A DNA stretch of 64,000 bases, taken from Rathayibacter sp. VKM Ac-2857 (GTDB lineage: Bacteria > Actinomycetota > Actinomycetes > Actinomycetales > Microbacteriaceae). Of this stretch, positions 3,659 to 56,315 are shown one piece after another. The notes below the pieces were generated by a model. That model saw only the letters and a list, made by a program, of their open reading frames with translations, did no database searches and was not told where the DNA came from. A program made the position numbers and the translations under genes. Position 1 is the stretch's first letter; the number at the start of each line of letters is the position of its first letter. The stretch is from positions 496,001-560,000 of the forward strand of contig NZ_JABMLE010000003.1 of assembly GCF_013205025.1 (NCBI RefSeq). Reading direction: 5' to 3'.

Positions 3659-4665
3659 GTCAGCGACGTGCCGGTCACCCTCCGCGCTTCGGTCGCACCG
3701 AGCTCCCGGACGAGCAGCGTCGAGCCCTCCGGGACGCGACCCGGCTGGAGTGGGGCACCCTCGCGTTCCTCGCCGTCACCACCACGCTCGTGTTCCTCGT
3801 CCTGGGCAGCTCGCAGGCGATGCGCACGGCCTGGATCGAGGACCTCCTCTCCTTCCTCCCGCCGATCGCCTTCCTCATCGCCACTCAGGTGATCCGTCGC
3901 CCCCCGTCCCAGAAGCACCCGTACGGGCTGCACCGTGCCACGGCGATCGCCCACCTCGTCGCCGCCGTGTCCCTCCTGGTCACCGGCGGCTACCTGCTCG
4001 TCGACTCCGCCCTCACCCTCGTGACCGCCGAGCACCCCACCATCGGTGGCGTTCAGCTGTTCGGAACCACGATCTGGCTCGGCTGGCTGATGATCGCGGT
4101 CCTCGCGCTCACCGTCGTCCCCCCGGTTCTCTTCGGCCGGGCGAAGCTCACGCGCGCAGAGATCCTGCACGACAAAGTGCTGTACGCCGACGCCGACATG
4201 AACAAGGCCGACTGGCAGACCGCGGCGGCCGCGATCCTCGGCATCCTCGGGATCGGCATCGGCTGGTGGTGGGCGGACTCCGTCGCCGCGATCCTCATCG
4301 CGGCCAGCATCACCTGGGACGGCATCCGCAATCTCCGCTCCGCCGTCTCCGGTCTCATCGACACCCGAGCCCGCACCTACGACGACTCCGCCGTCCACCC
4401 GCTGGCCGACGACATCGACCACTTCCTGCGCCAGCAGGACTGGATCAGCGACGCCCGCTCCCGCCTCCGCGACCAGGGCCACGTCTTCCACGTCGAAGCG
4501 TTCATCGTTCCGCGCGAACCGGATCACCTGAGCACGAAACGGCTCGAGGAGACCCGGCTGGCCTGCAGCCGACTCGACTGGAAGATCCAGGACCTCGTGC
4601 TCGTCCCTGTCGAGACCCTCCCGGAGGAGTTCCTTCCCGGCCTCGCCTCCTCCGGCGAGCAGTAG
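3655..4665 (+). CDS. Cation diffusion facilitator (CDF) family transporter
   Basis: Encodes 336 aa. An N-terminal cytosolic stretch is followed by about six hydrophobic segments (about 35-225) and a C-terminal cytosolic domain. HPYGLHRATAIAH matches the histidine-rich loop after TM2 of cation-efflux proteins. The TM5/TM6 region has acidic residues in NKADWQTA and WWADSVAA where CDF metal-site Asp/His residues lie. Members export Zn, Fe, Mn or Co by proton exchange; the metal cannot be assigned. The start overlaps the stop of the lipoprotein gene at 3176. The gene ends before a GC-rich hairpin at 4718-4743. Confidence 0.87.
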   Translation: MSQRRAGHPPRFGRTELPDEQRRALRDATRLEWGTLAFLAVTTTLVFLVLGSSQAMRTAWIEDLLSFLPPIAFLIATQVIRRPPSQKHPYGLHRATAIAHLVAAVSLLVTGGYLLVDSALTLVTAEHPTIGGVQLFGTTIWLGWLMIAVLALTVVPPVLFGRAKLTRAEILHDKVLYADADMNKADWQTAAAAILGILGIGIGWWWADSVAAILIAASITWDGIRNLRSAVSGLIDTRARTYDDSAVHPLADDIDHFLRQQDWISDARSRLRDQGHVFHVEAFIVPREPDHLSTKRLEETRLACSRLDWKIQDLVLVPVETLPEEFLPGLASSGEQ

Positions 4666-45177: not shown

Positions 45178-46242
45178 ATGAGCACCACGACCGCCACCAC
45201 CGCTGCATCGTTGGGCCTCGGGTCGTCCGGCGCGGGAGGTGCGGGCCCGACCCCGGCCGCCGTCCGCGCCGGCACCCTCGGCGGGGCCTGGCGGAGATTC
45301 CTCCTCCGTCGGGCCCTCGGCCTGCTCGTCAACCTCGCGCTGCTCGTGCTGGTCACCTTCCTGATCGTGCAGCTCATCCCCGGCGACCCGGCGATCGCCA
45401 TCGCGGGGGAGTCGGCCTCGCTCGACCAGGTCGAGCTGGTCCGCACCCAGCTCGGCCTCGACCAGCCGCTGCCCGCGCAGCTCTGGACCTATCTGCTCGG
45501 CGTGCTGCAGGGCGACTTCGGCGCCTCCTACCGCTACACGATCCCGGCGATGGACCTCGTGATGACGGCCGTGCCGTACACGCTGACCATCACGATCTCC
45601 GCGGTGCTGCTCCTGCTCGTGCTCGGCATCGCGCTGGGCATGGCGGTCGGCGTCGCGACCCGCGGCGACCGCCGCCGCTGGCTCGACGCGGTGTTCAGCA
45701 CCGTCACCGGGCTGATCTCCTCGGTGCCCACCTATGTGCTGGCGACCGGCTTCGTCGTCGTCTTCGCGGTGCTGCTGAAGGTGCTGCCGCCCGCGTACTC
45801 GCCGGCCTACGACTTCGGCACCGCCGCGATCCTGCCGATCGCCTCGCTCACCGTCGGCGGCACCTGCTCCGTCGCGAGGATCGTCCGCCGCGAGACCGCG
45901 GTGATCCTCGAGCAGGACTACATGCGCACGGCCCGCGGCTGGCGGCTGCCCGCGCTCACCCTCTACGCCAAGCACATGCTGCCCAACCTGCTCACCACGG
46001 CGCTGACGCTCTCGGGCATCATCCTCACCGCGCTGCTCGGCTCGGCGCTGATCACCGAGGCGGTCTTCGCCTGGCCCGGCCTCGGCGGCGTGATCGTCCA
46101 GGCGATCGCGATCGACAAGGACTACCCGGTGATCCGCGCGGCCGTCTTCGTCATCGGGCTCATCTCCCTCGTGATCACCCTCGTGATCGACGTCATCCTG
46201 GGTCTGATCGACCCGCGCACCCTCGGAGAGCAGCGTGGCTGA
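45178..46242 (+). CDS. Dpp-type ABC transporter permease (DppB-like)
   Basis: Encodes 354 aa. ATG 45178 follows CGAGGAGACG. After a Thr/Ala/Gly-rich N-terminal tail, six hydrophobic segments follow (first: LVNLALLVLVTFLIVQLIPG). The EAA-type loop is LEQDYMRTARGWRLPALTLYAKHMLPNLL, and the C terminus is VIDVILGLIDPRTLGEQRG. It overlaps the permease-ATPase fusion by 8 bp. Confidence 0.92.
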   Translation: MSTTTATTAASLGLGSSGAGGAGPTPAAVRAGTLGGAWRRFLLRRALGLLVNLALLVLVTFLIVQLIPGDPAIAIAGESASLDQVELVRTQLGLDQPLPAQLWTYLLGVLQGDFGASYRYTIPAMDLVMTAVPYTLTITISAVLLLLVLGIALGMAVGVATRGDRRRWLDAVFSTVTGLISSVPTYVLATGFVVVFAVLLKVLPPAYSPAYDFGTAAILPIASLTVGGTCSVARIVRRETAVILEQDYMRTARGWRLPALTLYAKHMLPNLLTTALTLSGIILTALLGSALITEAVFAWPGLGGVIVQAIAIDKDYPVIRAAVFVIGLISLVITLVIDVILGLIDPRTLGEQRG

Positions 46243-47968
46243 GTCCCTCCCCGCCGTCCGCGGCCTGAAGCCCGCCGGCGCGCGCACCTTCGCCTGGAAT
46301 CCCGGGCTCGTGATCGGGCTCGGCCTGCTCGGCGTGATCGCCCTCACCGCGCTGATCGCCCCGATCGCGCTCGAGGGCCAGGCCACCGGCCTCGGCGGCA
46401 GCCCCAGCCTCGGCTCGACCGCCGAGCACCCGCTCGGCACCGACACCCTCGGCCGCGACATGCTCGCCCGCACCCTCGTCGCCACCCGCTCGACCGTGCT
46501 GATGGCGCTCGCCGCGACCGTGCTCTCGGCGATCGTCGGCATCGCGGTCGGCATCGGCGTCTGGCTCGCCCCGCGCCGGGTCCGCGAGCTCGGGCTGCGC
46601 GCGATCGAGCTGGCCGTCAGCTACCCGACGATGCTCGTCGCGATCATCGTCGCCGCGATCCTCGGCCAGGGCGTCGTCCAGGTGGTGGTCGCCATCGCGG
46701 TCGCCAACATCGCCGGCTTCGCGCGGCTGACCGCCAACCTCGCCTCCAAGATCGCGGCGAGCGAGTACGTCACCACGGCCCGGCTGACCGGAGTGCCGAC
46801 GCACCTCGTCGCGCTGCGGCACGTGCTGCCGAACATGGCCGAGCCGACGCTGATCCTCGTCGCCGGTGCCTTCTCCGGCGCCCTCGTCGAGATCTCGGGT
46901 CTCTCCTTCATCGGCCTCGGCGCGCAGACGCCCGCCTTCGACTGGGGCACGCTGCTCAACGACGGGCTGAGCCGGATCTCGGTGAACCCGGTCGTCATCC
47001 TCGGCCCGGCGCTTGCCCTTACTGTCGCCTCCTTCGCGGCGCTGCTGGTCGGCGACGGCCTGGCGGCGGCGGCGAACCCGCGCTCGAACACGACGCGGGC
47101 CCGGATGACGAGGGCCACCGGCTCCGCGACCGCCGACTCCTCGACCGCCGCACCCGCCCCCGCCGACGCCGTGCTCGTCGCCGACGGCATCACCGTCCGC
47201 CACGGCGCGACCGGCCGCGAGCTCGTCTCCGACCTCTCCTTCGCCATCCGCCGCGGCGAGGTGCTCGGCATCGTCGGCGAGTCCGGCTCGGGCAAGTCGC
47301 TGACGGCGTCCGTGGTCGCGAAGCTGCTCGGCGAGGGCCTGGAGGCGTCCGCGCGCCGGCTCGAGCTCGGCGGCACCGACCTGCTCGGCCCCGTCCCGGA
47401 CCGGGTGCTCGCCGCGAAGATCGGCCTGATCTACCAGGACCCGGGCACCGCGCTGAACCCCGCCATGGTCCTCGGCACCCAGCTCTCGGACGTGCTGCGG
47501 ATCCGCCTGCGCCACTCCCGTCGCGACGCGCTCGACCTGCTGCTGCGCGGCTTCCGCTCGGTGATGCTCTCCGATCCGGAGGGGCGCCTGCGGCAGTACC
47601 CGCACCAGCTCTCCGGCGGCATGAAGCAGCGCGCGATGATCGCCTCGGCGATGAGCGCGAAGCCCGACCTGCTGATCGCGGACGAGCCGACCACCGCGCT
47701 CGACGTGACGGTGCAGCGCGAGGTGCTGAGCGTGCTCAAGCGCATGAACGAGGACTCCGGCACCGCCGTGCTCTTCATCTCGCACGACCTCGGCGTCGTC
47801 CGGGCGCTCTGCGACCGCGTCCTCGTGATGAAGGACGGCCGCATCGTCGAGCGGATCGACGACATCGCCCACCTCTCGGAGGAGACCGTGATGCATCCGT
47901 ACACGAGGCAGCTGCTCGCCGCGACGCCGGTCGTGACCGTGCCGACGCCGCCGGAGGTGCGCTCGTGA
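46235..47968 (+). CDS. Fused DppC-type permease and DppD-type ATP-binding protein
   Basis: Encodes 577 aa. The start is GTG 46235. Residues 1-275 are a DppC-like permease (LGTDTLGRDMLARTLVATRS and EYVTTARLTGVPTHLVALRHVLPN as EAA loop). An Ala/Thr/Ser-rich linker (about 280-312) leads to a full ABC domain: Walker A GESGSGKS, signature LSGGMKQR and Walker B LLIADEPTTALD. No stop or frameshift interrupts the frame. The same arrangement is known among actinobacterial oligopeptide importers. It overlaps the second ATPase gene at 47965. Confidence 0.92.
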   Translation: MAESLPAVRGLKPAGARTFAWNPGLVIGLGLLGVIALTALIAPIALEGQATGLGGSPSLGSTAEHPLGTDTLGRDMLARTLVATRSTVLMALAATVLSAIVGIAVGIGVWLAPRRVRELGLRAIELAVSYPTMLVAIIVAAILGQGVVQVVVAIAVANIAGFARLTANLASKIAASEYVTTARLTGVPTHLVALRHVLPNMAEPTLILVAGAFSGALVEISGLSFIGLGAQTPAFDWGTLLNDGLSRISVNPVVILGPALALTVASFAALLVGDGLAAAANPRSNTTRARMTRATGSATADSSTAAPAPADAVLVADGITVRHGATGRELVSDLSFAIRRGEVLGIVGESGSGKSLTASVVAKLLGEGLEASARRLELGGTDLLGPVPDRVLAAKIGLIYQDPGTALNPAMVLGTQLSDVLRIRLRHSRRDALDLLLRGFRSVMLSDPEGRLRQYPHQLSGGMKQRAMIASAMSAKPDLLIADEPTTALDVTVQREVLSVLKRMNEDSGTAVLFISHDLGVVRALCDRVLVMKDGRIVERIDDIAHLSEETVMHPYTRQLLAATPVVTVPTPPEVRS

Positions 47969-48798
47969 GCGCCGCCGCGGCCACCGGAGCCGCCGCGTCC
48001 TCCGCGATGGTCGACGTCCGCGGTCTCGACGTGGTCTTCGGCCACGCGAAGGTCCTGCACGGCGTCGACCTGCGGGTCGAGCGCGGCCGCACCGTCGGCG
48101 TGGTCGGCGAGTCCGGCTCCGGCAAGTCGACCCTCGCCAAGGTGCTCGTCGGCTCGGTCCGCGCGGCCGCCGGCACGGCGACCGTGGACGGCGTCGACGT
48201 CGTGGCCGCGAACCGGGCGGCGATGCACGCCTACCGCCGGCGCACGCAGATGATCCCGCAGGACCCCTACTCCTCGCTCTCGCCGCGGCGCACCATCGCG
48301 CAGACCCTCGCCGAGGCGATCGACCCGGTCCGCGCCCGCGTCGGCCGGAACGAGGAGCTGATCGTCGCCTGGCTGGAGCGCGTCGGCCTCAGCGCCGACA
48401 TGCGGCACCGGTTCCCGCACGAGTTCTCCGGCGGCCAGCGCCAGCGCGTCGCGATCGCCCGCGGGCTGATCATCGACCCGACCTTCGTGATCGCCGACGA
48501 GATCACCTCCGCCCTCGACGTCTCGGTGCAGGGGCAGATCCTCGACCTGCTGGCCGGGATCAAGGAGTCGCTCGGCCTGACGATGATGTTCATCTCGCAC
48601 AACCTCGCCGTCGTCCAGCGGGTCAGCGACGAGGTCGTGGTGCTCTACCGCGGCGAGGTCGTCGAGGCAGGCCCGGTCGAGCGGATCTACGCCGACCCCC
48701 AGCACTGGTACACCCGCCGCCTGCTCGACGCCGACCCGGGCTCGCCCGGCTTCAGCCTCACCGGAGCGGCGTCGATCCCCGCGAAGGAGAGCGCATGA
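47965..48798 (+). CDS. Dpp-type ABC transporter ATP-binding protein (DppF-like)
   Basis: Encodes 277 aa from GTG 47965. Walker A GESGSGKST, signature FSGGQRQR and Walker B FVIADEITSALD. The usual Pro of the DEPTSALD box is Ile here, a small departure in the Walker B region. The C terminus YTRRLLDADPGSPG is oligopeptide-type. It pairs with the ATPase half of the fusion at 46235. Its stop overlaps the ATG of the amidohydrolase at 48795. Confidence 0.92.
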   Translation: MSAAAATGAAASSAMVDVRGLDVVFGHAKVLHGVDLRVERGRTVGVVGESGSGKSTLAKVLVGSVRAAAGTATVDGVDVVAANRAAMHAYRRRTQMIPQDPYSSLSPRRTIAQTLAEAIDPVRARVGRNEELIVAWLERVGLSADMRHRFPHEFSGGQRQRVAIARGLIIDPTFVIADEITSALDVSVQGQILDLLAGIKESLGLTMMFISHNLAVVQRVSDEVVVLYRGEVVEAGPVERIYADPQHWYTRRLLDADPGSPGFSLTGAASIPAKESA

Positions 48799-50063
48799 CC
48801 GCCCGACTGCCCCTCACCCCCGTGGCCGAGGGCGTGCTCCGGCTCGTCGGCGCGACGCTCGTCGACGGCACGGGCGCCGCTCCACTCGAGGACTCCGAGG
48901 TCGAGATCCGCGACGGCGTGACCGCCTACGCGGGGCCGCGCCGTGCGGATCCCGGGCCTGACGGTCGCACGGTCGACGTCTCCGGCGCGTTCCTGCTGCC
49001 GGGCTTCGTCGACGTGCACGTGCACCTCGCGATGGTGCCCGTCGCCCCGGAGACGGCGCGCGAGCGCTTCCCGGAGGAGGACGTCCTCGAGATCGCCGGG
49101 CTGCTCCGCCGCACGCTCGACGCGGGGGTCACCACCGCGCGCGACCTCGACGGGCTCTCCCCGGGCTACCGCGAGGCCGTCGCGCGCGGAGCCGTCGACG
49201 GCCCGCGACTGCACCTCGCGATCGCGATGCTCTCGCCGACCGGCGGCCACGCCGATCCGCACCACCGCAACGGCAGCCTGCCGGCCTGGGCCGTGCGCCC
49301 GGGCATGCCCGCGCCCGGCCTCGTGGACACGGACGAGGACGTGGTCCGGATGGTCCGGACGCTCGTGCGCACCGGTGCCGACGTGATCAAGGTCGCGACT
49401 TCGGGCGGGCTCGGCTCCCCGAACGACGACGCGCGGGACGTGGGGATCACGCAGAAGCAGGTCGCCCTGATCGCGGAGCTGCTCGCCGAGCGCGGCGGCC
49501 GGCCGATCACCGCGCATGCCCTCTCCGACGACGCCGCGCGGGACGCCGTGCTGGGCGGCGCGACGAGCATCGAGCACGGCTACGATCTCTCCGACGAGAC
49601 CATCGCGCTGATGCGCGAGCGGGGGACGACCCTCGTGCCGACCCTGAGCATCCTGGTCCGCGAGTTCGACCCCGCGACGACCACCGCCGAGCGGCTGCGA
49701 CAGCGCGAGCTGCTGCGCGAGCGGGGGCTGGACTCGGTGCACCGAGCCGTCGCGGCGGGCGTCCCGCTCGCCCTCGGCACGGACGCCGGAGTGCACCCGC
49801 ACGGCCGGAACCTCGCCGAGCTGGCGCAGCTGGTCGCCGTCGGGCTCACTCCGCTCCAGGCCTTGAGTGCCGGCACGCTCGGCGGCGCCCGCCTGCTGGG
49901 GCTCGACGCGCAGCTCGGCTCGGTCGAGCCGGGCAAGCTCGCCGACCTGGTGCTGACCGACGCGGACCCGCTGGCCGACATCGCCGCGCTGGGCGACCCC
50001 TCGGCGGTGCGAGCCGTGCTGCAGTCGGGCCGCGTGGTCAAGGACCTCGACGGGCGGCTCTGA
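48795..50063 (+). CDS. Amidohydrolase, imidazolonepropionase/prolidase-like
   Basis: Encodes 422 aa. Features of the metal-dependent amidohydrolase group that splits Xaa-Pro or cyclic amides: GFVDVHVHLAM (HxH), DVIKVATSGGLGSPNDD (metal Lys), ITAHALSDDAARDAVLGGATSIEHGYDL, and LALGTDAGVHPHG (last metal Asp). Start ATG 48795 overlaps the ATPase stop, so it is part of the importer operon, which makes the transported compound its probable substrate or precursor. Confidence 0.87.
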   Translation: MTARLPLTPVAEGVLRLVGATLVDGTGAAPLEDSEVEIRDGVTAYAGPRRADPGPDGRTVDVSGAFLLPGFVDVHVHLAMVPVAPETARERFPEEDVLEIAGLLRRTLDAGVTTARDLDGLSPGYREAVARGAVDGPRLHLAIAMLSPTGGHADPHHRNGSLPAWAVRPGMPAPGLVDTDEDVVRMVRTLVRTGADVIKVATSGGLGSPNDDARDVGITQKQVALIAELLAERGGRPITAHALSDDAARDAVLGGATSIEHGYDLSDETIALMRERGTTLVPTLSILVREFDPATTTAERLRQRELLRERGLDSVHRAVAAGVPLALGTDAGVHPHGRNLAELAQLVAVGLTPLQALSAGTLGGARLLGLDAQLGSVEPGKLADLVLTDADPLADIAALGDPSAVRAVLQSGRVVKDLDGRL

Positions 50064-50193
50064 AGCACGAGCCCGCTTCTCCTCGCCTGCGAGCGAGGTG
50101 GCGGTCTCTCCTTCGACCGGTCGTTCCACGCCATGAGCAGGAGCGGAACTGAGTAAGTCACTGTTCTGGTTGCCGTTTCAGTATCGTTGAGGG

Positions 50194-50964
50194 ATGACGC
50201 TCAGATCCGGATACGTGAACGCGCCGCTCGAACTCGTCGTCTTCGAACTCGCGCACCCACCGAGCCCGTTGCGTCAGGAAGAGGTCTACGCCGTCAAAGC
50301 GGTCCTGGGCGACCTTGCTCCGATCGCTCGGCTGGAGGTCGAAGGGGGTCCCCTGCTCATGTCCCGGGGTCGGCATCTGAACATCTCCTTCGGGCCGGAG
50401 GCGCTGACGATCAGCACGACGTCGTACGAGGGCTGGCCCGGCTTCCGGACCACGATCGAAGCCGCGATCCGAGCGCGTCACGGGATCAGCCCCATCGATG
50501 CCTCCGAGCGCGTCGGTCTTCGGTACATCAACGAGATCCGCGTCCCGCAGCCTCCCGACCGCGACGGCGACGGCGACGGTGATGTGGACTGGTCGGAGTG
50601 GCTCGTGCCGAGCGTGACCGCTCCGGCGTTCGATCTGGACGGCGACAGCCTTCATCTCCAGGTCCACCGAGGTCTCGCAGCGTTCTCGCTCGACGAGGAG
50701 GGAGATGTCGTCGCAGTGCGGTACTCGGCCGCGCGGGAGGAGGCGATCGAATCGACACCCACCCTCGTCCGCCGCAGTCCCAGCCCGGGCGGCCCGTTCT
50801 TCCTCCTCGACACGGATGCGTCGTGGACGAGGGCTGACAGTGCCCGGCTCGAGACCTTCGATGTCGAGAGCACCCTCGCGACGTGCGATCGACTTCATGC
50901 TCCGATCGGCACGATCTTCGAGAAACTCATCACCGATCGCTTGAGGAAGGAAGTGCTGCTCTGA
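50194..50964 (+). CDS. TIGR04255-like family protein
   Basis: Encodes 256 aa. The pattern matches the TIGR04255 group as I remember it: NAPLELVVFELAHPP at the start, SERVGLRYINEIRVP in the middle and the C-terminal APIGTIFEKLITDRLRKEVLL. Its function is not established. There is no signal peptide or membrane segment. TATCGT lies six bases before the ATG, so the transcript may be leaderless. Codon use is looser than in neighbours (more A/T third bases). It is the first gene of a cassette: its stop shares bases with the ATG of the HTH protein (TGATG at 50962). Confidence 0.72.
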   Translation: MTLRSGYVNAPLELVVFELAHPPSPLRQEEVYAVKAVLGDLAPIARLEVEGGPLLMSRGRHLNISFGPEALTISTTSYEGWPGFRTTIEAAIRARHGISPIDASERVGLRYINEIRVPQPPDRDGDGDGDVDWSEWLVPSVTAPAFDLDGDSLHLQVHRGLAAFSLDEEGDVVAVRYSAAREEAIESTPTLVRRSPSPGGPFFLLDTDASWTRADSARLETFDVESTLATCDRLHAPIGTIFEKLITDRLRKEVLL

Positions 50965-51608
50965 TGGCGGAGAGAACACGTTCGGACCGTCTCACCGGCG
51001 GACGGTTGTACGAGACGGCGACGCAGCGATCGAGTGGCGAGGCGGCTCGCGCCATGGTCGGTCAGGCGGATGTCCTGCGCCGCGAGTCCTGGACTCTGAC
51101 CAAGCGCGTCCATGTCCTGCACCGGCAGGCGAGTGACGCGGAGTTGGACGCTCTGACGAACAAGCGTGCGGCCGAGAGTCCTGTCGAGGTGCTCGAGTAC
51201 CTGAGCGACCAGGGGATCGCCTGGCGCGACATCGCGAGTGTGGTCGGCGTCAGTGTCGCTGCCGTGAAGAAGTGGCGTCAGGGCGAAACCATGACGGGGG
51301 AGAATCGGCTCCGTCTTGCGGGTTTCGCGGCCGTGCTGGACAAACTGCACGACCGGATGATCTCGGACCCGGCTTCCTGGCTCGAGATGCCGATCGTCCG
51401 CGACGTCTTCGTGACCGGTCTCGATCTCCTCATCGCCGACAGGAGAGATCTCCTGATCCAGCACGCGGTCGACTACGAATCCGTCCCGAAGGAGGCCGTC
51501 TTGGACGCCTTCGACCCCGAATGGAGGACGACCCGCGTCGACGACTCGTTCGAGACGGTCGTCGGAGCAGACGGGAAGCTCTCGATCGCACCGAAGTCCT
51601 CGTCCTAG
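50964..51608 (+). CDS. HTH protein, Xre/ParS-type antitoxin-like
   Basis: Encodes 214 aa. A helix-turn-helix occupies about 85-115 (GIAWRDIASVVGVSVAAVKKW). It is followed by LAGFAAVLDKLHDRM and DPASWLEMPIVRDVFVTGLDLL, which resembles the toxin-binding region of MbcA/ParS-type antitoxins (conserved WL-x-P and G-x-LL). No RES or other known toxin is adjacent. It is coupled to both neighbours: TGATG with the TIGR04255-like gene and TAGTG with the gene at 51608. It could be the regulator or antitoxin of the cassette. Confidence 0.65.
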   Translation: MAERTRSDRLTGGRLYETATQRSSGEAARAMVGQADVLRRESWTLTKRVHVLHRQASDAELDALTNKRAAESPVEVLEYLSDQGIAWRDIASVVGVSVAAVKKWRQGETMTGENRLRLAGFAAVLDKLHDRMISDPASWLEMPIVRDVFVTGLDLLIADRRDLLIQHAVDYESVPKEAVLDAFDPEWRTTRVDDSFETVVGADGKLSIAPKSSS

Positions 51609-52267
51609 TGCTCCAGCTTCAGACACCGACATCGCTGCTCGACCTCTACGCGGCATGCGGCGAAGAGGTGGAGACCCACCGTCCGCTCTTCACCGGAGAC
51701 GTGTTCGACTCGGCGGACGAGCTGGTGCAGGTCGTCCAGCACCCGTGCGCGCTCAGACGCGGGCCGGAGCTCTTGCCGCGTCTCCTCGTCGTCCCTGTCC
51801 GCCCCTGTTCGCGGCCGCGGTCCGACTGGGCGAAGGCCGACTACAAGACCATGCCGTTGCCGGCGCTGCTCGGACCGGCGGGGCACCATGAGGGACTTTT
51901 CGCCGAGCCGTCGGTGGTCGAGTCGTCCGTGCTCGTCGCGCTCCCTCGGGTGGCCACACTCGCGCCGACGGGCGTCGATCTTCTTCTCCAACGATTCGTC
52001 CACCACTCCTCGAGGGTGATCGTGCCGATCGACCGGCTCGACGAGGTGACGAGCGGCCCGTTCGAAGAAGCGGACCTGCACGCGGAGTGGGTCGAGGGCC
52101 GACGGACTGCGCCTGAGGAGGCGGCGCTCGAGTTCGACAGGTGGATCAGGGAGGAGGAAGGAGGAGGCACTCGGCAGTCACGGTTGGACGTTCCTGCGTT
52201 CCGATCGACCATCCGTCGCGCTCTGCGTGCAGAGCTGAAGAAGCGGAACGCTCAGAACTCCTCGTAG
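51608..52267 (+). CDS. Unknown protein of the three-gene cassette
   Basis: Encodes 219 aa from GTG 51608, whose G is the last base of the previous TAG stop. I do not recognise the family. Visible features: ADELVQVVQHPCALRRGPELLPRLLVVPV (a QxxCxLR pattern after a hydrophobic strand), SVLVALPRVATLAPTGVDLLLQRFVHH, and a charged C terminus (IRRALRAELKKRNAQ). It is not secreted. It could be an effector or toxin held in check by the HTH partner, but nothing in the sequence proves that. It ends 16 bp inside the convergent gene at 52252. Confidence 0.6.
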   Translation: MLQLQTPTSLLDLYAACGEEVETHRPLFTGDVFDSADELVQVVQHPCALRRGPELLPRLLVVPVRPCSRPRSDWAKADYKTMPLPALLGPAGHHEGLFAEPSVVESSVLVALPRVATLAPTGVDLLLQRFVHHSSRVIVPIDRLDEVTSGPFEEADLHAEWVEGRRTAPEEAALEFDRWIREEEGGGTRQSRLDVPAFRSTIRRALRAELKKRNAQNSS

Positions 52268-52599
52268 TTGTAGGGCTCCGGGTCCGGCTCGACGACGGGG
52301 CGCGCGACGGTGCGCTTGTTGTTCTTGATCCGCGAGCGGATGTCCTCGACGGCCTTCGCGACGGCGTCCTCGGTCGCGGCCTCGTCGTCCACGGCCCGCT
52401 CCACGGGCACGGCGACGAGCTCGCTGCTCGCGTCGAGTGTCATCTTGGCCTCGATGAGCACGCCCTCGTCGGTGAAGGCGGGGACGCTGACGGCCTCCGA
52501 GTGCTCCTGCCGGTCGATCGCGGTCACGAGGTCGAGGAGGGCCTCGGTGACGGCGTCGGTGGTGACGATGCTCTTGGAGGCGTAGGTCAGCTGCTGCAT
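52252..52599 (-). CDS. Conserved-looking hypothetical protein
   Basis: Encodes 115 aa from ATG 52599 (MQQLTYASKSIVTTDAVTEALL). The chain is acidic and mixes strands and helices (VSVPAFTDEGVLIEAKMTLDASSELVAVPVE), then a helical stretch and a C terminus rich in Pro, Glu and Tyr. Third-position GC is high, unlike the cassette next to it. No known motif. It converges on and overlaps the gene at 51608 by 16 bp. Confidence 0.65.
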   Translation of the reverse strand: MQQLTYASKSIVTTDAVTEALLDLVTAIDRQEHSEAVSVPAFTDEGVLIEAKMTLDASSELVAVPVERAVDDEAATEDAVAKAVEDIRSRIKNNKRTVARPVVEPDPEPYNYEEF

Positions 52600-52738
52600 G
52601 ATTCCAGTCTGGTCGGCGCGGCGCGGCGGCTCTCGGGCTTGCGGCGGGGGCGGGTGGGCGTCTAACGGGGCCGGCTGTGGATCTCCGTTCACCTCGGCGA
52701 CCTTGCGGCGGGCGTGCCGCGCGCCGCAGTCTGGAGGC

Positions 52739-52954
52739 ATGCGAGACGTGCTGAGGAGATCCAGCGGCGGCGAGATCGCCGGCGCCGTCCTGATCGTGCT
52801 GGCTTCGATCGCGCTCCTGATCGGCGCGTTCGCCGCGGGCGCGGGGAGCGTCTACGGGATGCTCGGCGTGATCGTCGCGTTCACCGCAGGCATCACCGGT
52901 CTCGGCGTGCACATCGCCGGCCGCGAGGCCCGGCTGCGCCGCGACGGGAACTGA
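52739..52954 (+). CDS. Small two-helix membrane protein
   Basis: Encodes 71 aa, ATG 52739 with CTGGAGG upstream. Two hydrophobic segments (AGAVLIVLASIALLIGAFAAG and YGMLGVIVAFTAGITGLGVHI) are flanked by charged ends. Function unknown. Divergent from the gene at 52252 and followed by family A repeats. Confidence 0.65.
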   Translation: MRDVLRRSSGGEIAGAVLIVLASIALLIGAFAAGAGSVYGMLGVIVAFTAGITGLGVHIAGREARLRRDGN

Positions 52955-52960
52955 CGCCTT

Positions 52961-53331
52961 CATGCTGATCGAGTAGCCCTCGGAGAGGGCGTATCGAGAT
53001 CCGCCCACCGCTGGCACGGGGGTCTCGATACGCGCTGCGCGCTACTCGACCAGCATGGGACGGGCGTGCCCGCCCGTGCTGTGCAGCATGCTCGCGCCCG
53101 TCCATCAGGGTTCCGCCGCTGAGCCGATTCATGCTGATCGAGTAGCCCTCGGAGCGGGCGTATCGAGATCCGCCCACCGCCGGCACGGGGGTCTCGACAC
53201 GCGCTGCGCGCTACTCGACCAGCATGCGGCGATTCATGTTGATCGAGTAGCCCGCGCAGCGGGCGTATCGAGATCCGCCCACCGCCGGCACGGGGGTCTC
53301 GATACGCGCTGCGCGCTACTCGACCAGCATG
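52961..53331. repeat. Three consecutive family A repeats
   Basis: Full elements at 52961-53057, 53130-53226 and 53235-53331. Left inner stems are GCCCTC-GGA-GAGGGC, GCCCTC-GGA-GCGGGC (one mismatch) and GCCCGC-GCA-GCGGGC. Right arms all use CGCGCTGCGCG. They fill the space between the small membrane-protein gene and the end of the GntR gene at 53350. Confidence 0.88.
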
Positions 53332-53349
53332 CGGCGACCCCGCCGCGGG

Positions 53350-54114
53350 TCAGCGGTCGACGAGGGTGATCTCGAAGGAGTAGAGGTCGGGGCGGTAGCA
53401 GTGCTGGCCGTACTCGACGGCGCGGCCCGAGTTGTCGAAGGCGGTGCGGGTCATCGTCAGGACCGCGGCGCCCTTGCGAAGGTCGAGGAGCTGCGCCTCA
53501 CGGGGGGTCGTGGCGCGGGCGCCGATCCGCTGCTTGGCGACGCGCATCGCCACTCCGCGGGCGCGGAGCAGCTGGTAGAGGCCGTGCGACTCGAGGGCGC
53601 CGAGGTCGAGGTCGACGAAGTCGGCCGGCAGGGTGTTGTCGAGGACGGCGAGCGGGACCCCGTCCGCGGACCGCAGCCGCACGAGGTGCAGGACGGGCGA
53701 GCCGACCTCGACGCCGAGCGCCTCGGCGGTCTTCTCGTCGGCCGTGCCGACGGTGGAGGAGAGGGTGCTCGTCGTGGGGCTCTGGCCGGAGCGCTGGAGG
53801 TCCTCGAACAGGCTGGTGAGCTCGACGTTGCGGGTGACCCTGCCGTGCACGACCTGCGTGCCGATGCCGCGGCGGCGGACGAGGAGGCCCTTGTCGACGA
53901 GGTCCTGGATCGCGCGGCGGATGGTCGGCCGCGACATGCCCAGCCGGTTGCCGAGCGACACCTCGTTCTCGAGCCGGGAGCCGGCCGGGAGCGTCTCGTC
54001 GAGGATGGCCCGCTCGAGGCGGGTCGCGATCTGGTGGTAGAGCGGGATGGGCCCGGAGCGGTCGAGGTCCATGAAGAGGTCCATCGGCAGGGCGTGCTCC
54101 TCCTGCAGCGCCAT
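53350..54114 (-). CDS. GntR family regulator with UTRA domain, probable inositol regulator
   Basis: Encodes 254 aa from ATG 54114, preceded by GGAGGGG. The N-terminal GntR winged helix is clear (IPLYHQIATRLERAILDETL, then LGNRLGMSRPTIRRAIQDLV). The C-terminal UTRA effector domain (about 95-250: VGSPVLHLVRLRSADGVPLAV, GLYQLLRARG, YGQHCYRPDLYSFEITLVD) binds a small sugar-like ligand. It is divergent from the iol genes at 54332 onward, so it likely represses them and responds to an inositol intermediate (an IolR role by context). Confidence 0.88.
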   Translation of the reverse strand: MALQEEHALPMDLFMDLDRSGPIPLYHQIATRLERAILDETLPAGSRLENEVSLGNRLGMSRPTIRRAIQDLVDKGLLVRRRGIGTQVVHGRVTRNVELTSLFEDLQRSGQSPTTSTLSSTVGTADEKTAEALGVEVGSPVLHLVRLRSADGVPLAVLDNTLPADFVDLDLGALESHGLYQLLRARGVAMRVAKQRIGARATTPREAQLLDLRKGAAVLTMTRTAFDNSGRAVEYGQHCYRPDLYSFEITLVDR

Positions 54115-54214
54115 GTCGTCCCCCTCCGCCGGTCACCCGTCGTCCTCGACACCCGTCGGCGTCACTACATTATGCAGCGCACGTCGGCAGCTCAGCAGTC
54201 CGTCCCATTGTGTT

Positions 54215-54228
54215 ATTGTAAGGACATT
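54215..54228. promoter_or_regulatory. Candidate operator of the iol regulator
   Basis: ATTGTAAGGACATT differs at two of 14 positions from the perfect palindrome AATGTCAGGACATT at 63851. It lies in the spacer between the GntR gene and iolE-like gene, in an AT-rich patch. Confidence 0.6.
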
Positions 54229-54331
54229 AAAGACCGCCCCGTCGAGGAGTTGTACACCGCCGTATGGTCCAGATGATCCGCCGCGCCCTCGTGCACGCCG
54301 CCCCTGCGTTCGTCGTCCCCGGAGCGTCCCG

Positions 54332-55249
54332 GTGAAGGCCGCGGTCGCCGGCGCCCCCGTCAGCTTCGGCGTCTTCGAGCTCACCCCGGAGGGCGCCGAC
54401 ACGGTCTCGCCCGACGACCTCGTCGACGTGCTCGCCGAGGCGGGCTACACCGGCGTCGACCTGGGACCGGCCGGCTACCTCGGCCGCGGACGAGAGCTGC
54501 GCCAGCGCCTCGAACGGTCGGGACTCGACGTCGCCGGCGGCTGGATCCAGCTGCCCTTCTCGGACGACGAGGCCTTCGCGGCGTCGCTGCCCGAGCTCGA
54601 CGCCGCGCTCCGCCTCTTCGCCGAGGCGTCCGAGCACGGCCCCGCGCGGCTCCCGCTGCCGACCCTCGCCGACGACGGCTCCGCGGTCCGGCGCTCCTCG
54701 CCCGGGCGCGGCGCCGGCGCCGATCCGCTCGACGACGCGCGCTGGTCGCGGCTCGCCGCCAACGTCGAGCGCGCGACCGCCACCGTCCGCGCGGCCGGCT
54801 TCGAGCCGACGTTCCACCACCACGCGGGCACGTACATCGAGTCGCCGGAGGAGATCGACCGCTTCCTCGGCGCCGTCGACATCGGCCTCACCCTCGACAC
54901 CGGTCACCTGCTGATCGGCGGCGGCGACCCGGTCGCGGCCGTCGAGCGCTGGGGCTCCCGGATCAACCACCTGCACCTCAAGGACGTCGACGTCGCCGAG
55001 CTGCGCCGGGTCCTCGCGGCCGGCGGCGGGATGCGCGAGGTCTGGTCCTCCGGGTCGTTCGTCGCCTTCGGCCGCGGCGACATCGACCTCGACGCGGTGA
55101 TGACCGCGATCGACGCCCAGGGCTACGACGGCTGGGTGGTCGTCGAGCAGGACGTCCTCAACGCCCCCGACGCCGACCTCGCCGCGTTCCGCGACGAGCG
55201 CCGCGACGACCAGGCCGTCAACCGCGAGGCCCTGCGCGCCTGGGCCTGA
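54332..55249 (+). CDS. iolE: Inosose dehydratase-like TIM-barrel protein
   Basis: Encodes 305 aa. GTG 54332 follows CCGGAGCG. The AP-endonuclease-2 TIM barrel starts AGAPVSFGVFELTPEGA and continues LAEAGYTGVDLGPAGYLGRG, like IolE, which dehydrates scyllo-inosose. Metal-site residues appear in FHHHAGTYIE, LDTGHLLIGGGDP, NHLHLKDVD and VVEQDV. It leads the iol operon. The IolE assignment rests on the first 60 residues and the operon; another isomerase/epimerase activity is possible. Confidence 0.78.
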   Translation: MKAAVAGAPVSFGVFELTPEGADTVSPDDLVDVLAEAGYTGVDLGPAGYLGRGRELRQRLERSGLDVAGGWIQLPFSDDEAFAASLPELDAALRLFAEASEHGPARLPLPTLADDGSAVRRSSPGRGAGADPLDDARWSRLAANVERATATVRAAGFEPTFHHHAGTYIESPEEIDRFLGAVDIGLTLDTGHLLIGGGDPVAAVERWGSRINHLHLKDVDVAELRRVLAAGGGMREVWSSGSFVAFGRGDIDLDAVMTAIDAQGYDGWVVVEQDVLNAPDADLAAFRDERRDDQAVNREALRAWA

Positions 55250-55307
55250 CCGCGCCCCTCTCGAACCCCGACCCCCCAGACCGCCCCCGGGCAGCAAGGA
55301 CACCGCC

Positions 55308-56315
55308 GTGACCGACACCCCTCTCCGCTTCGGACTCGTCGGCACCGGCCGCATCGGCCAGGTGCACGCCGCGAACATCGCCGCCGACCCCGAGGCGACG
55401 CTCGCCTGGGTCTGCGACCCGTTCGTCGACGGCGCGAACGCCGTCTCGGCCCGCTACGGCGGAACGGTGACGACCGACGCCGCCGAGATGTTCGCCTCCG
55501 GCGGGATCGACGCGGTGCTGATCGCCTCGCCGACCGCGACGCACGTCGACCTGCTCGAGGCCGCGATCTCGGCCGGGATCCCCGCGCTCTGCGAGAAGCC
55601 GATCGACCTCGACATCGCGCGGGTCGACGCGCTCCTGCCGCGCGTCACGTCATCGGGAGTGCCGATCGCGCTCGGCTTCAACCGCCGCTTCGACCCGGCC
55701 TTCGCCGAGGCGCGCGCCCGCGTCGCCGCCGGCGAGATCGGCGCGCTGGAGCAGCTCTCGATCATCAGCCGCGACCCCGCCGCCCCGCCCGCGGCCTACA
55801 TCGGCGTCTCCGGCGGCATCTTCCGCGACATGACGATCCACGACTTCGACATGGCGCGCTTCTTCCTCCCCGACATCGTCGAGGTCACCGCGACCGGCGC
55901 GACGACCTTCGACCCCGGCGCGCGCGAGCACGGCGACTTCGACACCGCGGTCGTCACGCTCCGCTCCGCCTCCGGTGCGCTCGTCTCGATCACCAACTCG
56001 CGGCACAGCTCGGTCGGCTACGACCAGCGCATCGAGGCCTTCGGCGCCGACGGCTCGATCGAGGTCGCCAACGCCCTCACCAGCCTGGTCAGCGTCTCGA
56101 ACGGCACGAGCGTGCAGGCGAAGCCGCCGTACCAGGACTTCTTCCTCGAGCGGTACTCCGTGGCCTACCGGGCCGAGCTCACCGAGTTCATCAAGCTCGC
56201 CCGCGGCGAGGAGTCGACGAGCCCCACGTTCGCCGACGGCCGCGCCGCCCTCGTCCTCGCCGACGCCGCCGCCCGCTCCGCGGTCGAGCGCGTCTCGGTG
56301 AGCGTCGAGCTGTAG
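55308..56315 (+). CDS. iolG: Inositol 2-dehydrogenase, Gfo/Idh/MocA family
   Basis: Encodes 335 aa from GTG 55308. N-terminal Rossmann motif GLVGTGRIGQVHAANIA (7-23), the conserved CEKPIDLDI with catalytic Lys, and IHDFDMARFFLPD with the catalytic Asp/His region. This NAD-dependent enzyme oxidises myo-inositol to 2-keto-myo-inositol, the first step of the pathway. The operon supports the inositol assignment over other sugars. Confidence 0.88.
   Translation: MTDTPLRFGLVGTGRIGQVHAANIAADPEATLAWVCDPFVDGANAVSARYGGTVTTDAAEMFASGGIDAVLIASPTATHVDLLEAAISAGIPALCEKPIDLDIARVDALLPRVTSSGVPIALGFNRRFDPAFAEARARVAAGEIGALEQLSIISRDPAAPPAAYIGVSGGIFRDMTIHDFDMARFFLPDIVEVTATGATTFDPGAREHGDFDTAVVTLRSASGALVSITNSRHSSVGYDQRIEAFGADGSIEVANALTSLVSVSNGTSVQAKPPYQDFFLERYSVAYRAELTEFIKLARGEESTSPTFADGRAALVLADAAARSAVERVSVSVEL

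Follow-up and report, generated by a model that had tools for sequence, protein, structure and literature searches.

A stretch of 64,000 nucleotides from the genome of Rathayibacter sp. VKM Ac-2857 (hereafter the window) carries three overlapping genes, A, B and C, which we interpret as a widespread tripartite toxin-antitoxin-like module with C as the toxin, B as a DNA-binding antitoxin, and A, a member of family TIGR04255, as a co-antitoxin or sensor. We assign this interpretation a probability of about 0.58. The data themselves establish the gene architecture, the insertion of the trio into the chromosome, the co-conservation and co-inheritance of the three genes, the predicted fold of C, a weak kinship of B with MbcA, and the pattern of gene loss.

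The coordinates of A, B and C (Table 1) bear out the coupling proposed in an earlier model-made reading of the letters alone (the sequence-only reading). At the A-B junction (TGATG) and the B-C junction (TAGTG), the downstream start codon (ATG at 50964 for B, GTG at 51608 for C) overlaps the upstream stop codon by one base. As that reading had also noted, third codon positions are less GC-biased in the trio: the GC content at these positions (GC3) amounts to 0.805 in A, 0.828 in B and 0.818 in C (0.80-0.83), versus 0.95-0.99 in nine flanking genes (five upstream, four downstream). Its suggestion of an own promoter before the first ATG was not upheld, as a scan of positions 50000-52800 for the sigma-70 consensus detected no promoter, a promoter of another type still being possible.

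A scan with profiles of A, B and C revealed all three co-encoded genes in 36 of 38 loci (window included), i.e. in 34 of 36 non-redundant loci, as L036 and L050 duplicate L023 and L031. The exceptions are L027, which has a distant C alone, and L008, whose A and B are found about 19 kb off on the same plasmid. Gene order and strand are kept in 35 of the 36 trios; L028 has a convergent C. Since the same three genes recur together elsewhere, the trio is more than a chance arrangement. A lack of such joint conservation was one of two outcomes that the sequence-only reading had named as speaking against it, and the neighbourhood survey found the opposite, both in these loci and in all eight plasmid loci viewed of a diverged form (see below). 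Across 28 loci, the three genes gave correlated distance matrices (0.96; Mantel test with 9,999 permutations, p 0.0001).

The named records with the trio belong to Actinomycetota: (i) the genera Mycobacterium, Arthrobacter, Frankia, Arachnia, Kocuria and Leifsonia, (ii) metagenome-assembled genomes of Acidimicrobiia and Thermoleophilia, which we take to be members of this phylum, and (iii) others. A search with the C alignment A7 detected C in 21 genome-contig loci and two viral-contig loci; as a single query, C of the window found nothing in these two collections. C is also carried by two Rhodococcus plasmids. With the own genome included in each count, C was detected in 6/398 genomes of the family, 6/394 of the class and 6/396 of the order. 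The family matches comprise two strong ones (the own genome and G107) and four weak, partial ones (G096, G103, G273 and G379; E 7e-5 to 7e-4), the latter dropped as chance. In the Arachnia loci L040 (2484-3134) and L048 (3417-4034), an extra gene of 206-217 aa follows C, and the L040 copy has no Pfam match.

The trio was inserted as a unit, probably after horizontal acquisition. Fifteen genomes of the genus (own included) were searched for the gene immediately upstream (48795-50063), and five of the others contain close orthologues (84-96% identity). In four of these five relatives the site is empty, with 18, 28, 13 and 33 bp between the matching flanks (L082-L085), versus about 2.2 kb for the same interval in the window. 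The blastn matches to the four congeneric genomes end at 50056-50063 and restart at 52250-52254. Since the flanking genes adjoin in these relatives with only 13-33 bp between them, the trio is an insertion in this genome. The sequence-only reading had seen a sign of transfer in its low GC3. The fifth relative (L086) has no match to the convergent gene, and C has no match in the nine other same-genus genomes compared. C overlaps the 3' end of this convergent, minus-strand gene (52252-52740) by 16 bp, and it apparently ends in resident DNA, because its last bases and stop codon are nearly identical in the trio-less loci L083 and L084. Upstream of the trio, on the same strand, lies a permease/ATPase/amidohydrolase series (identities from reading of the open reading frames). 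Integration linked to a tRNA gene was rejected, as there is no tRNA gene within 46000-56000; no convincing pair of flanking repeats was seen.

Beyond the insertion, positions 52959-53336, with the convergent gene on one side and a GntR-like gene on the other, contain three copies (93-95% to the reference) of a 104-nt repeat with internal palindromes, spaced 169 and 105 bp from start to start. It looks like a palindromic intergenic repeat element, and similar pieces occur in the relatives compared.

Table 1. Features of the trio and its insertion site (window positions).
Feature	Position	Strand	Basis
Gene A, TIGR04255 family protein, 256 aa, candidate co-antitoxin or sensor	50194..50964	+	TIGR04255 profile, model, fold comparisons
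Gene B, 214 aa, helix-turn-helix (N-terminal part) with MbcA-like part behind, candidate antitoxin/autorepressor	50964..51608	+	HTH_23 and 6fkg_C profile matches
Gene C, 219 aa, candidate toxin: MazF/CcdB-fold domain (residues 25-138) and helical tail (about 141-218)	51608..52267	+	
Inserted stretch: all DNA that separates the two resident neighbours (amidohydrolase gene and convergent gene), with about 130 bp ahead of A	50061..52252		blastn against four congeneric genomes
Last codons and stop of C, apparently from resident DNA (3' end of convergent gene)	52250..52267	+	nearly the same bases in trio-less L083 and L084

Sequence libraries do not recognise C: it gave no match at E 1 in Pfam, NCBIfam, PADLOC or PHROGs, and the 31 members of its family gave only scattered single Pfam matches (best E 0.012). 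In the predicted model of C (predicted local distance difference test score, pLDDT, 93), residues 25-138 match MazF/CcdB toxins and adopt the MazF/CcdB/Kid fold. The residues invariant in the family are P26, G30-D31, H45-P46-C47, R50, W74, R114, Q128-R129, R136 and E154. A metabolic role, the other outcome named against the sequence-only reading, was rejected because C matches no metabolic or other family and has a predicted toxin fold. An identity of C as a RES toxin gained no support: the RES Pfam family is unmatched, and the RES fold is not among the fold matches listed, an absence which by itself proves nothing.

A diverged form of the trio, A-B'-C', was recognised by reading in L087, L091, L092 and L093, where a helix-turn-helix-like gene (B') and a gene with a 'QGD/QGH...C' motif (C') occupy the matching places. 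Profiles built from plasmid relatives and L087 recovered B' in L092 and L091 and C' in L092 and L093 (E 6e-4 to 1e-5), none of these three loci being part of the profiles that found them; C' of L091 and B' of L093 were identified by reading alone. Among plasmid records, A of L087 matches 12 and its C' nine; eight are common to both, and in every one of these about 590-760 bp separate the two genes. Eight of the 13 records were viewed (five of the shared eight, plus those of Vibrio, Mesorhizobium and Sinorhizobium), and all have a TIGR04255 gene followed by genes of 166-226 aa and 234-287 aa on one strand. The plasmid hosts are Alpha-, Beta- and Gammaproteobacteria (Pseudomonadota), Deinococcota and Cyanobacteriota; no blastn match to the Klebsiella plasmid trio was found in E. 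coli genomes. B and B' are homologous (hhalign 98.4%, E 9e-15). The profile comparison of C with C' is weak (hhalign 14.4%), with the GD...HxC stretch aligned, and their homology, not proven by profile, rests mainly on synteny. A Pseudomonas putida plasmid (L126) also has a gene annotated as a RES family NAD+ phosphorylase (3868-4416), at a distance of about 1.6 kb from its diverged trio, and may thus house a RES system as well.

All 30 members of the B family match HTH_23 (best E 1.1e-6), whereas B alone, compared with Pfam, NCBIfam, PADLOC and PHROGs, gave only weak helix-turn-helix matches. The sequence-only reading had likened B to MbcA/ParS antitoxins. The B family profile matches the solved MbcA structure 6fkg_C weakly (E 0.0017 and 0.0049), with about 90 residues aligned to Rv1990c MbcA (E 0.0049), and B' matches better (E 5.9e-5), but the dedicated Pfam domain was not matched. 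The likeness therefore stands in a weakened form for B and more firmly for B', and the sequence matches weakly suggest that B is related to MbcA.

The assignment of A to TIGR04255, also foreseen by the sequence-only reading, is clear (NCBIfam, E 9.7e-34; 117.3 bits, curated cut-off 30); the name of this family, sporadTIGR04255 in NCBIfam, points to no function. The predicted model has a pLDDT of 91.6; its fold matches are weak and differ by method, pointing to AdoMetDC/TBP in one case and to guanidino-kinase catalytic domains in the other (Foldseek TM-scores <0.4). Charged residues R106, R110, E114, R176, R193, D206 and D208 are invariant. TIGR04255 occurs in 13/148 genomes of the class, accompanied by B and C in five (G000, G402, G408, G414 and G527); the other eight have no B or C match at E 1, and one of them (L094) was a partial match. 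In L088, L089 and L090, all from one genus, orphan TIGR04255 genes close to A stand without B or C beside them.

Losses fall mostly on C. Coverage of the respective model reaches at least 85% for A in 36/36 loci and for B in 35/36 (79% in L055). It drops below this value for C in 4/38 loci, namely the distant L027 and three damaged trios (L008, L026 and L033) in which C is the broken gene; C of L037 retains 88% coverage and has a diverged tail. The C fragment of L008 (plasmid pRaL13e), about 19 kb away from the other two genes, adjoins ISL3 and IS1380 transposase genes, and the related plasmid pNAPH (L007) carries an intact trio between mobF and transfer genes. The breakage of C and the lone A of L088-L090 both agree with a costly C and harmless A and B.

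Several trios have mobile or defence-related neighbours. In five loci (L029, L042, L044, L045 and L054) hsdM, hsdS and hsdR of type I restriction come immediately after the trio (typed by PADLOC for all three genes in L029 and for hsdM and hsdR in L044, the remainder by similarity), and serine recombinase genes lie near it (assigned by Pfam in L029 and L044 and by similarity in the other three). With 96-99% identity among their B proteins, these loci represent one lineage and not five events. The island comprises the serine recombinase gene, a gene of 264-277 aa (in the gene calls of four of the five loci; no Pfam match in L044), A-B-C and hsdM-hsdS-hsdR. PDC-S39 relatives stand beside the trio in L022 and L037 (the latter by similarity), a PDC-S06 relative in L043, and an SNF2-type helicase in L031. 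TniB-type transposition genes were found in L037 and on a Pseudomonas putida plasmid, and 8/10 plasmids viewed were typed as conjugative or mobilizable. Two IMG/VR contigs carry the trio, one of them also with a ParB and an AAA gene. An origin as phage genes was not supported, since tblastn of A and C matched no phage record; mobile carriage is supported. A, B and C themselves match no system protein of PADLOC-DB 2.0.0, where the only hit at E 1 was a partial homing-endonuclease match of B (E 0.001).

Taken against the sequence-only reading of a toxin-antitoxin or anti-phage module with the third protein as effector, these data treat its two halves differently. The toxin-antitoxin-like character, with C as the effector, is supported by the predicted fold and comparative genomics, whereas the anti-phage role is circumstantial (restriction neighbours and PADLOC candidates).

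We infer toxicity, complex formation, autoregulation, a trigger, a target and a defence role as parts of the following scheme. C would be the toxin, formed by the MazF/CcdB-fold domain with its family-specific invariant residues and a helical C-terminal extension. B would bind the control region of its own operon via the helix-turn-helix and use its MbcA-like and C-terminal parts to hold C. As the first protein translated, A would serve as a co-antitoxin or sensor: it would lock the B-C complex and let it go on sensing an invading element or the damage which this causes. Freed C may then stop growth by attacking RNA or a topoisomerase.

Several observations weigh against this interpretation. 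The Mantel correlation can arise from shared descent alone, which contributes here. Three broken copies of C are few, and two of them (L026 and L033) come from draft assemblies, in which the breaks may be sequencing errors. C has no Foldseek match at E 0.001, PF02452 (PemK) is unmatched at E 1 in 31/31 C members, and hhalign of C with 12 PemK-family proteins of related genomes gave 8.8%. MazF RNases employ a catalytic Arg and a Thr/Ser; the Thr invariant in 12/12 MazF-type proteins aligns (weakly, by hhalign) to the variable column 65 of C, with T/S in 12/31 members, which makes a MazF-like RNase chemistry of C doubtful. The dedicated MbcA/ParS domain is absent among the 25 of 26 Pfam families seen over the 30 B members, and the B' profile matches generic helix-turn-helix proteins nearly as well as MbcA; its specificity is low, as it also matched another helix-turn-helix gene on the Pseudomonas plasmid (E 0.0013). 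Finally, of the 19 neighbours scanned with PADLOC, chosen by size, 8/10 had no match at E 1e-15 and 1/9 none at E 1e-5, counts that stand without a background rate.

Roles within the trio could also be reversed, with A as the effector and C as a sensor or regulator in which an old toxin fold serves solely for partner binding. The invariant charged set of A would be in keeping with an enzyme, or with a protein that binds nucleotides or nucleic acids; however, it is C and not A that is broken in damaged trios, three genomes of a single genus carry A but neither B nor C, a state not expected of a free toxin, and the fold matches of A are weak and method-dependent. We consider this reversal unlikely. 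Rather improbable, too, is a control cassette for adjoining defence genes, in which A senses, B represses and C tunes, for example, type I restriction genes, like the small repressors of other defence islands. The hsd genes directly after the trio in five loci favour it, and it stays alive through the precedent of RptR, described as a small repressor of a type I restriction-modification island with an embedded toxin-antitoxin pair (PMC12255303). Those five loci are one lineage, however, comparison with the other loci turned up no relatives of their hsd genes, and the trio of the window stands alone between resident genes.

The frequent carriage of the trio by plasmids and mobile elements, in one case with a MobF relaxase gene on one side and transfer genes on the other, recalls an addiction module that stabilises plasmids or islands and has no anti-phage role. 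This proposal fits the same toxin-antitoxin chemistry and differs only in the selective advantage; with the trio of the window a lone chromosomal insertion, and others beside restriction genes and PADLOC candidates, its chances seem slim. That the genes form no conflict system at all, and are three co-inherited members of a housekeeping or metabolic pathway, is hardly credible: the C family is indeed unannotated, but the trio is sporadic, as the class and order counts of C indicate, mobile, equipped with a toxin fold, and subject to decay specific to C.

The toxin-antitoxin-like module that we favour is related in kind to known systems. MazEF/PemIK and CcdAB share the toxin fold with residues 25-138 of C; the trio differs from these pairs in that C has no sequence-profile match, other conserved residues and an extra helical tail, the genes number three, and the antitoxin candidate is of another type. 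The MbcA antitoxin pairs with the RES toxin MbcT (Xre/MbcA/ParS-RES systems). B and B' match solved MbcA across the helix-turn-helix and the residues that follow, whereas the partner C matches MazF/CcdB folds and shows no RES match, B has a long N-terminal segment and leaves the dedicated Pfam domain unmatched, and the trio has one gene more. Among described systems VapKSC comes closest in its logic, with three genes for a sensor-type protein, a regulator and a toxin of RNase type: a kinase and its STAS partner are reported to control a VapC-like toxin, to respond to DNA damage and to be linked to phage defence; the protein families described there (GHKL kinase, STAS, PIN) are unrelated (PMC13373217). 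In TAC and CmdTAC, which are likewise tripartite, toxin inhibition (as reported for TAC) needs the antitoxin and a third protein, which is a SecB-like chaperone, whereas A belongs to TIGR04255 (PMC9098466, PMC11618068).

TIGR04255 is named in no paper of the full-text literature searched. The trio was recognised in none of the matches listed for MbcA/ParS, MazF, tripartite, three-gene and restriction-modification-embedded systems, a search in which subscription papers were mostly outside the scope. It is apparently unnamed, and its pairing of an MbcA-type antitoxin with a MazF/CcdB-type toxin was not found among the literature matches listed.

C represents a predicted toxin-fold family missed by sequence libraries, and the fixed three-gene unit gives TIGR04255, a curated family without an assigned function, a testable role. 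A bolder version, to which we give rather less than an even chance, holds that A-B-C is an undescribed tripartite immune system of at least four phyla, in which a dedicated TIGR04255 infection sensor (perhaps with a TBP/AdoMetDC-like tandem fold) acts by way of an MbcA-like antitoxin to gate a toxin of MazF/CcdB fold whose active site (HPC...R...QR) is new. If true, this would give TIGR04255 its first function.
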